DNA from: Cucumis sativus
Taxonomy: Eukaryota; Streptophyta; Magnoliopsida; Cucurbitales; Cucurbitaceae
Direction: 5' to 3'
Length of the DNA: 64,000 nt
NCBI RefSeq assembly: GCF_000004075.3
Contig: NC_026655.2
Coordinates: 6,820,001 to 6,884,000 of the forward strand
Position 1 is the first letter of the stretch; each line of letters opens with the position of its first letter. Below the pieces are notes generated by a model, which worked only from the letters and a program-made list of their open reading frames with translations, was not told where the DNA came from and made no database searches. Of the stretch, positions 22,847 through 63,285 are shown one piece after another. Made by a program: the position numbers and the translations under genes.

Positions 22847-23354
22847 GATATCAGAACAAAGTCAAATTTTGATTTCTTCTTTTGGCTTTTCGCTTCATGT
22901 CATCAATCAATAGCCCATTGAATTTTCTTCACTTTTATTCAATTGTTACCAAATTCCTGTATATTTTGAGCTGAATGTCGAGTGCAACTGGTAATACATA
23001 AATTGTTATCATTCTTAATTTACAACTTCTAATAAATTGGATTATTAATTTTAGCCTACAATCTACCAGAAGAGTAAAAATGATTTCTAGAAAAGATAAT
23101 TCTAGTTCTAAATCATCAAGAAATGCACTGGGATCATTCTTAGAGAAAGAACTTTCAATTTATTTAATAGAAACCACTAATATTATACATATGCATCACA
23201 TAGAATGATGTTCTCCTCAAATTTCTAACTTGAGAGAGAACTTTTAAAAACATACGTCAGAAGTAAAAAAAGAAAAGATCCCAAATTCATCCACATGGCC
23301 ACAAACATATTGGCCATCCACGCAAACCAAATATTCCACTTTCAGAAGAACAAT
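22847..23354. other. Convergent intergenic region between XTH and polyubiquitin
   Basis: About 500 bp holds the 3' ends of two converging genes. The XTH 3' UTR runs rightward from 22847, with an AATAAA-like stretch near 23030. The polyubiquitin 3' UTR runs leftward from 23354. Nothing else is seen. Confidence 0.55.
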
Positions 23355-24728
<1,374 letters not shown>

Positions 24729-25057
24729 CTATACAGAAACAAAAGAAAGAGATAAGAATAAGAAAACTCTATTTCCATAAATCCGAATCACATATTAATC
24801 CAATCAAGCACATAAAAATCGAGCAGAAATCAGAAACAAGATTAAGAATCACAAACCCCAAATGGATCCAAGAGCAGATCCAAAACCCAATTTAAGAAAC
24901 ATGTAAAACGAAAATCTCGGAAAGCATGAAGAAGATGATAAAAAAAGAAAAAGGAGAGGGAGAAATACCTTGGAAGAGAGGGAATTGGTTCGCTACGAAG
25001 TGAATGAGAAGAGAAAATGTTGCGAAGAACCGAAGGGATAGAAGGGGTGTATTTATA
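24729..25057 (-). promoter_or_regulatory. 5' UTR intron and TATA box of the polyubiquitin gene
   Basis: The acceptor TGTATAG abuts the ATG, and the donor TTCCAAG|GTATTT lies at 24967-24968, giving a 240-bp leader intron (24729-24968). The short leader exon starts at 24969. A TATAAAT box is at 25051-25057, placing transcription start near 25025. Leader introns of plant polyubiquitin genes are known to raise expression; that role is assumed here. Confidence 0.75.
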
Positions 25058-54859: not shown

Positions 54860-55546
54860 ATGAATAGTCCTAGCCACTTGCCCGTACACCACACGGACAC
54901 GCCAGAGCAGCACCCAACAGCTCCAACCAAGCGCCATCACTCCGCGCGTTACTACGCCCATCGTGTCAAAGAGAGCCTCACCACGCGCGTCTCAAAGCTC
55001 ATATGCGCCATTTTCTTGAGCCTATTATTAATTATAGGCATCATAACCTTCATATTGTGGCTAAGTTTACGACCCCACCGCCCACGATTTTTCATCCACG
55101 ATTTTACAGTTACGGGTTTGAGCCTTGAAAATGGCTTCGAAAGTGCCCAAATTGTCTTCAATGCCACGGCCCGAAACTCCAATCTCAATATTGGGATTTA
55201 CTACGACGCCATGTCGGGTTCGGTTTATTATAAGGAACAGAAAATAGGGTCGACGCCATTGCTGGATTCTTATTACGAAGGGCCGAAGACTACGAAGGTT
55301 CTTACGGCGGCGCTGAGTGGAGCGACGTTGAATATTGATAGGCAACGATGGATGGAAATAAGTAACGAGCGGTCAAAAGGAGTGGTGGTTTTCCGGTTGG
55401 AGATAACGTCGACCATCCGATTCAGGATATCGGCTTGGGATAGTAAGAGGCATGTAATGCATGCTAATTGCCCCGTCTCGGTGGGCTCCGATGGGATGAT
55501 TTTGCCTTCTTCTAAGGATCTTAGATGTCCAGTCTACTTTACTTGA
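54860..55546 (+). CDS. LEA_2 / NDR1-HIN1-like (NHL) membrane protein
   Basis: A single-exon gene of 228 residues. The N-terminus is a polar, His/Pro/Thr-rich cytosolic tail (1-46). One membrane segment follows at about 47-70 (LICAIFLSLLLIIGIITFIL), ending at the RPHRPRF motif common after it in NHL proteins. A lumenal or extracellular LEA_2 beta-sandwich (about 80-228) contains FNATARNSN and IGIYYD, the family's usual strand pair. NHL proteins sit at the plasma membrane or plasmodesmata and are linked to pathogen response and sugar transport; the role here is unknown. A TATA-like CTATATATT at 54778-54786 fits a start near 54810. It is the larger of two LEA_2 genes in this part of the window, 2.1 kb from the next. 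Confidence 0.9.
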   Translation: MNSPSHLPVHHTDTPEQHPTAPTKRHHSARYYAHRVKESLTTRVSKLICAIFLSLLLIIGIITFILWLSLRPHRPRFFIHDFTVTGLSLENGFESAQIVFNATARNSNLNIGIYYDAMSGSVYYKEQKIGSTPLLDSYYEGPKTTKVLTAALSGATLNIDRQRWMEISNERSKGVVVFRLEITSTIRFRISAWDSKRHVMHANCPVSVGSDGMILPSSKDLRCPVYFT

Positions 55547-57244
55547 TTTTAACGTTCTCTTATCTTTTTTTAAAAATATTAGATTTGTGTTTGGGTTTGG
55601 AAATTTGTTGGATTAATATTTTAATTGTTTGTGTGATTTGGTAATTGGGGAACATTTTAAAACGGTAATTCAATTTTATTATTGTTTTAGAAAAGTGTGT
55701 TTATTAATGCAGTTTTAGTTAACCCTAAAGTTGGGGATTGTTGCACTCAAATATTATTCGACGAAAGTTTTCATAGTTTAGGAGGATAATTATTGATTAA
55801 TTAATTAGAGTTTTAAAGAGTTGTTTAATTAAAAGGATTTTGATTATTATTTTGTTTTGGGTGATGCTTAAGTGAGGAGGCTTGAGCTTTTCCTTTCTTC
55901 TTGAGGCATTTCTTGTGTTTTAAGTATGTTCTTTTACTCTGCCTGTGCTGTGGAAAAAGATATCAGTACTCATTTTCATAATTATTTTTCATTATACTTA
56001 ACAAAACAATCCATTTATTCCCGTTCATTTCTTTTCCTATATTTTATAAATAACTTTATCTTCCCTTCATTTCAAAGACTATTTACCAAATATAGAAAAC
56101 AATCTTAAATAAACTATGAGAAATTTGAAATCGGGGAAATTGCATTAGATGAATTTTTTTTAAAGAAAAAAACAGTTTGTAACACCTCCTCATATTACAA
56201 ATTTAACAAATATAATGATAATAAGACGATAATCTGCATTTAAATTTGTTATTTTTACAATATTAAAAATGTAAGTGATATGAACTCTATTATTACAATC
56301 TTTTTGCTATTTTTACCAACTCTCCTTGAAATTATTCATGGTAACATGAAATAAAATCAAAATAAAATAAAGAAACCACAAGCTCAAGTAGCTTTTATGA
56401 GCTTCATTTGAAATAAAACAAATCTAAATCTAAATAGTTATTGTTTAGAGTTTGGTTGAGACTACTAATAAAATGTTAAAAAGTATCAAATTTGACAAAA
56501 TATTTACAACAAACAGTAAAATTTTTAGATTCTATGAATGTATAGACATTGATATACTTCTATTAGTAACATTGATAAACAATGAGAGAAGTCTATCAAT
56601 TTTTATCATTAATAAAATACAAAATTTTGCTATAAATTATAAATACTTTTAATTTATTTTGTTATTTTTAAGAGTGTTCCCAATAACTAATTGAATAATT
56701 TAAGGAATATTTTATAAAAAAATTCACTTAACTAATGGCTTGTTGTTTGATAACTAGTACTTTGATTTTCTAATTTTAAAAACAAAGCTTATAAACACGA
56801 CTTCCCCTCCCCATTTAAAACCAAAGTCCAAATTATTGGTAGCTATATCTCAATTTTTTTTAAAAAAAAAGTTCTATATACTACAAAAGTTAGATCAACC
56901 ATTCGAAATCTACCAATGATATACCATATTGGTTAAGTAGAAGGGTTTATTAATGATAAAATCCGTAAGAGATAAGATTTTGATATATTATAATTTCTAT
57001 TGACAAAAAATAGTTTTACTAATTTAAACACACTTAGACTTAGAGATGTATGTCTAAAAGGGGAAAGTAGTGGGAACATATTGTTGGGGTTTGAAGTAAG
57101 GAATCCCAACTCAAGTTTTTCCAAATTAAATGATAAATGACTCAAAAGTTCACACTTTACACCTAAGAAATCTCCTTTAAATGTCAGAGATGAAATACAT
57201 ATGATATGTAAAAAGAACACAAAAGTTATGAACTAAAAGCAAAC
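55547..57244. other. Intergenic between the two LEA_2 genes
   Basis: The 3' UTR of the first LEA_2 gene, then AT-rich DNA. A decayed member of the inverted-repeat family lies at about 56476-56652. No gene is supported. Confidence 0.5.
56476..56652. mobile_element. MITE-like inverted repeat, copy D (decayed)
   Basis: Contains TTTGACAAAATATTTACAA on the left and AAAATTTTGCTATAAATTATAA on the right, with paired TAGACATTGATA and GTCTATCAATTTTTATCATT blocks in between. This is the same arrangement as the better copies at 7316 and 18993. Ends are approximate. Confidence 0.5.
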
Positions 57245-57514
57245 TGTTGGTGATATATAATTAAATTTGCCTTCAACCACAAGCTTAAGCTTTTGGATGA
57301 ATTGGTGGTTTAATATGGTATCAGAGCAGGTGGTCCAGGGAGGTCCTGTGTTCAAGCCCCTGTATTGTCGTTTCCTCCCCAATTAAAATCAATTTCCACT
57401 TGTTGGGCCTTTCAGATATTTCAAGCCCACAAGTGAGGGGGAGTGTTGGTGATATATAATTAAATTTGCCTTCAACCACAAGCTTAAGCTTTTGGATGAA
57501 TTGGTGGTTTAATA
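57245..57514 (+). mobile_element. TRIM (terminal-repeat retrotransposon in miniature)
   Basis: A 270-bp nonautonomous LTR element. Two direct repeats of 71 bp, at 57245-57315 and 57444-57514, are identical base for base and start TGTTGG. Directly after the left repeat is the primer-binding site TGGTATCAGAGC (57316-57327), complementary to initiator tRNA-Met as in many plant LTR elements. Directly before the right repeat is a purine tract, AAGTGAGGGGGAG (57431-57443). The element is flanked by the 5-bp target duplication CAAAC at 57240-57244 and 57515-57519. No protein is encoded, so it must have been mobilised by an autonomous relative. The repeats end in ATA instead of the usual CA. Their identity argues for a recent insertion. 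The element lies only 143 bp upstream of the second LEA_2 start codon. Confidence 0.92.
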
Positions 57515-57657
57515 CAAACTCTTCTTTCCAACGAACTCAAACAAATATTACACCAAAATTGCTTTACCTTTCTTCATCACAAAGAAACTACACCCTCTAT
57601 ATCTGCATCGACTTCACTCTCAAACTTCAACTAAACACATAAAAACCCTAAAAAATA

Positions 57658-58239
57658 ATGACTTCCAAGAGAGGCGGCTCCAATTCTGATATCTACATAT
57701 GGTTTCTTCAGGTTCTAACAATTCTAGTATTGGCTTTCTTGGCCATATGGGCCACTCTAACCCCTAGAACTCCTACTTTCACCATCACCAATATGGATTT
57801 GAAGCCATATATTCGAAACGACACCGCTCTCGCAACCACAAACTCTTCTTTCTTAGCCTTTAATGTGACCATCTCAAATCCCAACAAAATGATTGGTGTT
57901 TTCTTGGATGAGATTAATGTAACAATAGGCTGCAACAACGAGAGCCTAATTGGGTCGAGGTCGTGGTCGAAGTCAATGGCAGGATTTTATTTGGGGCACA
58001 GCGTAAGTGATTTGAAGGAGGTTGACTTGAGTGTTGATGATAATGAATTGTCATTGTGTAGGAAAGTGGATTATTATTTGAGGGTTGGGGTGGATACGGG
58101 TGTTAGATATAAGATTATGTGGTTCATAACCAGGCATCATGGGTTAGTTTTTGAAGATTATATTGAAATTGGCTACGGTCATGGGCAAATGCTAGGAACA
58201 ACACAAATGAAGTTAAAGCTAAGTTTTACCAATTTGTAG
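57658..58239 (+). CDS. Small LEA_2 / NHL-like membrane protein
   Basis: A single-exon gene of 193 residues. A short polar N-terminus (MTSKRGGSNSD) precedes a membrane segment at about 13-33 (YIWFLQVLTILVLAFLAIWA). A LEA_2-type domain follows, with TFTITNMDLKP, the N-P-N strand motif FNVTISNPNKMIG, and several N-glycosylation sites (NDT, NSS, NVT). Compared with the neighbour at 54860 it lacks the long N-terminal tail and is diverged in sequence, so the two are not a fresh duplicate. The role is unknown; the family is membrane-anchored and often stress- or pathogen-responsive. A TRIM element sits just upstream and may now contribute to its promoter or leader. A weak CTATATC lies near 57597. 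Confidence 0.85.
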   Translation: MTSKRGGSNSDIYIWFLQVLTILVLAFLAIWATLTPRTPTFTITNMDLKPYIRNDTALATTNSSFLAFNVTISNPNKMIGVFLDEINVTIGCNNESLIGSRSWSKSMAGFYLGHSVSDLKEVDLSVDDNELSLCRKVDYYLRVGVDTGVRYKIMWFITRHHGLVFEDYIEIGYGHGQMLGTTQMKLKLSFTNL

Positions 58240-59303
58240 TTAACCCTTGGCTTTGCAAATTTCTTTGGGTTTTAAGTTAGATCCAAATTCCTATGTTTTT
58301 TCTTTTCTCTCGTCTGAGATTTGTAATTTGTATTAATACTTAGATATGTATTTGGAGTAGTAACAGTTTTTATATAAAGATGAGTATCGTGTAGGATATA
58401 AACTCATAAATTAAATGTACCAAAAAGAACTAAAACTTAATCGTTCTACAAAACTTTGATTTGTTATCAATTAATTTAAAATTACAAACGTCTAACTATT
58501 TAACAGAGACTGTTTAGCATAAAAGCAATTAGAAATTGTTACATAAAATTCTCCGTTCCGAAAATGATTGAAAGACAACTTTATAAAAGAATCATAAAAT
58601 GTTATATAAAAGGAAAAACATGATGTGTACGTCATTATCTTGAACCTACTACAGTTTACCAAATTAATAGTTTAATACATCTGTAGATCATTTAATGATT
58701 CATTGCATTTAAAGATAAGAAGAGTAATTTATATACTACTTTGACCCAACTAACATCTAACCACAAATACGAAACTTGAGATTATTTGACTCCAAGACAA
58801 AAAATTGAAAAAGCCAACAAAAACTTAACTCAACTATCATTAACATATTAAGAAAAAAAAGAATTTGAAAAAAAAGAATTTGATACACTATTTTGGCATG
58901 AAATGTGACCTAATCCATTCATCTCCCTTCTTCACACTCAATATAGAACCAAAGTGTCTCATGCTATTTGTTTCTAGGTTTAGATTTTGAAAATTAAGGT
59001 ATGTTTGATTTAATTTTAAAAATTTAAGTCATTCAAAAGAGAAAAGAGGTATTTGTTAACTAGTCAAAATAGTTTTTGAAACAATTTCAGGTATATTTTA
59101 AAGAGTTGGTTTTACTAAAACAGTTTAAATAAAAATAATTTTTTTCACTATTTTTGAGTTTTAACTAAGAAAAAAAAAGATTTTTCCTTTTAGAATTTGA
59201 TTAAGAATCTAAATATATATGTTTCTACACGAAATTTTGAGAAAGAACCATAATTTTGAACTTAAGATAAAATAACAAAATGATTGTAAATTGAAAAACT
59301 TAC

Positions 59304-60608: not shown

Positions 60609-63285
<2,677 letters not shown>

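Follow-up and report, generated by a model that had tools for sequence, protein, structure and literature searches.

In the passages of PMC4717578 consulted here, four cucumber subfamilies of TRIMs are listed, which together comprise 2,816 copies, 30 of these being complete; tandem TRIMs are described, the Cassandra group is reported complete in cucumber, and a coding relative is absent for 278 of 289 TRIM subfamilies. We analyzed a stretch of Cucumis sativus DNA of 64,000 nucleotides (hereafter the window; NC_026655.2, positions 6,820,001 to 6,884,000), in which an initial annotation had placed a recent TRIM retroelement in the promoter of a LEA_2 gene. Elements of this kind are well known, and the window copy is a further member; it is almost certainly one copy of a TRIM family, inserted upstream of the gene at 57658 and most likely having little effect on it.

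Structure of the element and its primer site

The element spans 270 bp (window 57245-57514) and consists of two 71-bp direct repeats, between which there is no difference, around a 128-bp interior. The complete miniature LTR structure, the purine tract and the perfect target duplication proposed from the letters alone were all borne out at the positions given in Table 1. As expected of a TRIM, terminal direct repeats are found within a total length of 270 bp (limit 1000 bp), the target site duplication is 5 bp long (4-6 bp required), a primer site follows the 5' repeat, a purine tract precedes the 3' repeat, and retrotransposon proteins are absent from the element, in which the longest stop-free run in six frames is 63 codons. 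The canonical LTR ends are TG...CA, whereas these repeats close in TA (AATA). The RNA fold of the repeat gave z -1.77, 9 of 200 shuffles folding equally well.

Table 1. Features of the element and of the region following it (window positions).
Feature	Position	Strand	Remarks
Target site duplication, left copy	57240..57244	.	CAAAC
5' LTR	57245..57315	+	71 bp, TGTTGG...AATA; TATATA at 57254
Primer binding site	57316..57327	+	TGGTATCAGAGC; starts at first base past 5' LTR
Internal region	57316..57443	+	128 bp
Purine-rich tract	57433..57443	+	GTGAGGGGGAG; directly before 3' LTR; single T, rest purines
3' LTR	57444..57514	+	Same sequence as 5' LTR; TATATA at 57453
Target site duplication, right copy	57515..57519	.	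CAAAC
Upstream reading frame	57496..57642	+	48 codons; ATG in 3' LTR, stop TAA 57640-57642
193-aa reading frame	57658..58239	+	LEA_2 match below cut-off

The letters TATCAGAGC of the primer site are complementary to tRNA-Met genes at their 3' end. A genome search for a 21-base pattern whose last letters are the complement of TATCAGAGC gave 17 sites, 15 of them exact and 2 carrying one mismatch, versus 0 in the control, and a tRNA-Met gene with anticodon CAT was present in 4/4 loci inspected out of those 17; the TGG of the primer site pairs with the CCA that is added to the tRNA. The primer site had been annotated as one for initiator Met: the match to tRNA-Met holds in the cucumber genome itself, and the matched genes are presumably those of initiator tRNAs. 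ARAGORN found no tRNA within the window. A 12-base match to the primer site at window 23750, which looks like chance, lies within an array of six direct repeats at 228-bp spacing (23349-24788), the other five being 67-82% like the first; the repeats measure 76 codons each, and we take them to suggest polyubiquitin on the minus strand.

A dispersed family: common ends, distinct target duplications

The initial annotation had proposed a genome search for the repeat, and this search revealed a dispersed family. The junction of repeat and primer site was found at 228 genome sites (at most 2 mismatches) versus 0 in the reversed control, the junction of tract and repeat at 200 sites and the repeat's end at 614 (both at most 3 mismatches; control 0). 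With 100 matches listed for each of the two junctions, 55 of the first-junction matches have a second-junction match from the list no more than 20 kb away, and the junction spacing among the matches listed is 129-131 bases in 24 pairs and 184-194 bases in 21; these two clusters therefore indicate two main size classes in the family. Moreover, a DNA search of the same genome (226.6 Mb, 88 contigs; best 40 of 1094 candidates scored) with the element listed 51 places, the window's own among them. The first 40 have 93-100% identity, two of these being truncated at one end; the remaining 11 are partial or less identical and include two that span the element (91% and 81% identity).

A table of 33 copies was built from the window copy and 32 of 40 fetched loci, of which 39 came from the whole-element DNA search and one from another search. 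Eight loci that are truncated, tandem or inverted (L013, L021, L027, L029, L038, L042, L044 and L048) are absent from it. An exact 5-bp target duplication is present in 28/33 copies (27 of those 28 distinct) and missing in 5/33, while about 0.03 of 33 would be expected by chance. The 3' letters are AATA in 33/33 copies, and the 5' letters TGTT in 32 and TGTC in one; since a copy entered the table only if its repeats could be aligned to both ends, this end uniformity is partly selected, and the duplications starting exactly at the ends are independent and stronger support. A chance or local 71-bp duplication, in place of a mobile element, is barely credible when the copies are dispersed and share their ends, and have separate target duplications and differing flanks.

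The ATA end had been suggested to mark a distinct subfamily. The end is real but, being common to 33/33 copies, does not single out the window copy. When an AACA end was searched at up to 1 mismatch, 116 places were found, and among those listed 17 differ from AATA (AACA 5, AAGA 10, AAAA 2), the others having AATA. Thus the ATA end may distinguish the family from relatives whose letters at this point, not necessarily at their true repeat ends, differ.

Tandem or inverted arrangements of the TRIM were seen at L027, L029, L044 and L048. L029 (C7:10439627-10441196) is a tandem array in which the repeat occurs six times, once in partial form, and L048 (C4:11398300-11400150) holds two partial copies, inverted and about 0.7 kb apart; a spacing like that of the L048 pair separates two interiors at C55:29064 and C55:29916.

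For a coding element enclosed by such repeats, a partial look was taken at 24 loci (20 + 4), and none was seen. The 20 loci were drawn from two groups of first-junction sites: 18 came from the 45 that have no second junction among the matches listed, and 2 from the 3 whose listed second junction is only far off. Comparison with repeat and interior indicated that all 20 hold TRIM copies or fragments, several of them carrying about 60 bp of the interior in duplicate. Stop-free runs of more than 200 codons are found in four (L050, L061, L065 and L068). That at L061:2039-2734 matches the Pfam family SH3_retrovirus, a retrotransposon polymerase domain (65.4 bits, cut-off 27); this piece and the TRIM copy of the same locus lie on opposite strands, about 5 kb apart, and the piece was not taken as coding partner because repeats like these do not enclose it in the stretch examined. 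The open stretch of L065 matches Exostosin_GT47, and those of L050 and L068 have no Pfam match at 0.1. In four additional loci, whose junction letters vary, the longest stop-free run is 133 codons and no Pfam match exceeds its cut-off; three carry another repeat no more than about 0.5 kb away, and in the fourth, L075, none was found in roughly 3.5 kb.

The window element is read as a TRIM copy because of its identical repeats, the target duplications in 28/33 copies, the AATA end in 33/33, the 228 junction sites, the tRNA-Met match, an identical sister copy (see below) and its lack of coding capacity; the anatomy, the dispersed family and the separate target duplications bear out the original identification. 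By analogy with LTR retrotransposons, an RNA copy of the source element would have been primed by tRNA-Met, then reverse transcribed and integrated by the enzymes of another element, probably one of the Ty1-copia kind.

Age of the insertion and the downstream gene

The insertion had been called recent on the strength of its identical repeats. Since 19/33 compared copies have identical 71-bp repeats, this identity is weak evidence of youth; at assumed rates of 1.3e-8 to 7e-9 per site and year, 0 differences over 71 bp allow an age of up to 1.6-3.0 My. A recent date is nevertheless supported by the copy at C49:79538-79807, which shows 0/270 differences from the window copy. Its target duplication is ACTTG, unlike the CAAAC of the window copy, and its 400-bp flanks have no match to the window at 1e-3. 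From this sister copy, and at the same assumed rates, the insertion would be at most about 0.4-0.8 My old. The compared copies were picked by likeness to the window copy, and the sample leans toward young ones.

The ATG of the downstream gene lies 143 bp past the element, as first described. Its assignment to LEA_2 is less firm: the 193-aa frame scores 18.6 bits against LEA_2 (PF03168), below the cut-off of 25.4. A neighbouring frame at 54860-55546 scores 28.1 bits, above the cut-off, and is 23% identical to the 57658 protein (E 5e-05); a LEA_2 identity of the gene is plausible though weak, as judged from these sequence matches. Comparison of the protein with solved structures gave no match at E up to 1. 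A partial paralog of the gene lies beyond the window end (L070, C1:6884731-6885023; 89% over window 58008-58299). Considered as a possible empty site by paralogy, it offers only the 3' part, about 290 bp; the insertion site is not covered and the matching 5' part is absent.

The earlier reading that the element may have altered the promoter or leader of the gene can be made explicit: the TATA-like site at 57453 (TATATA), within the 3' LTR, would direct the start of transcription, and the resulting leader would carry the 48-codon upstream frame opened by the ATG at 57496, lowering translation. This frame is also the gene's frame, and its stop lies 15 bases before the gene ATG. In the passages of PMC9456015, a cucurbit study, LTR elements in promoters are reported to act on expression in either direction, by suppression or, more often, by enhancement; those passages concern neither TRIMs (the word has 0 occurrences in them) nor the 57658 gene. 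On the other hand, TATA-like words are frequent in AT-rich DNA, and a TATAT at 57598, between element and gene, could serve a start excluding the element, which makes such a start at least as likely. We consider a change of the gene by this route unlikely. The fuller proposal, that a recent TRIM gave the gene a new transcription start together with the upstream frame, and that protein output consequently varies between alleles carrying and lacking the insertion, appears slightly less probable still. An insertion of little effect is the preferred reading, a changed promoter or leader being possible. A bacterial promoter scan, ill suited to plant DNA, gave 1 site versus 1.5 in shuffles. Should accessions vary in the presence of the insertion, it would serve as a marker; the locus also lends itself to a simple test of whether an element of 270 bp close upstream changes a gene's leader.

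Other features were observed in the vicinity. A 15-base identical pair joins the 3' end of the element (57514-57528) and the gene (57838-57852), probably by chance. A roughly 200-bp MITE-like repeat (56472-56671), which precedes the TRIM by about 570 bp, has matches on both strands genome-wide (best 40 of 1617 candidates scored). At 60609-61469 lies a reading frame that matches Stress-antifung (PF01657; 123.3 bits, two stretches).

Comparison with described TRIMs

Membership in the Cassandra group, whose repeats contain 5S-like sequence, would agree with the report of complete Cassandra in cucumber in the parts of PMC4717578 consulted. However, all Rfam families, 5S rRNA included, score below gathering in 57000-57800, so that the window element differs from Cassandra in having no 5S rRNA match at that score; we regard this assignment as very improbable. 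As described in the same passages, plant TRIMs are likewise under 1000 bp and noncoding, with terminal direct repeats and 5-bp target duplications; they likewise include tandem forms and are often in or near genes. With the window repeats ending in TA in place of CA, no basic difference was found from these elements, a likeness that concerns descriptions, not sequences. Likened on the same descriptive grounds, SMART (Zma-SMART, in those passages of PMC4717578) is of similar size, its example spanning 280 bp as judged by coordinates, and also forms tandem arrays.
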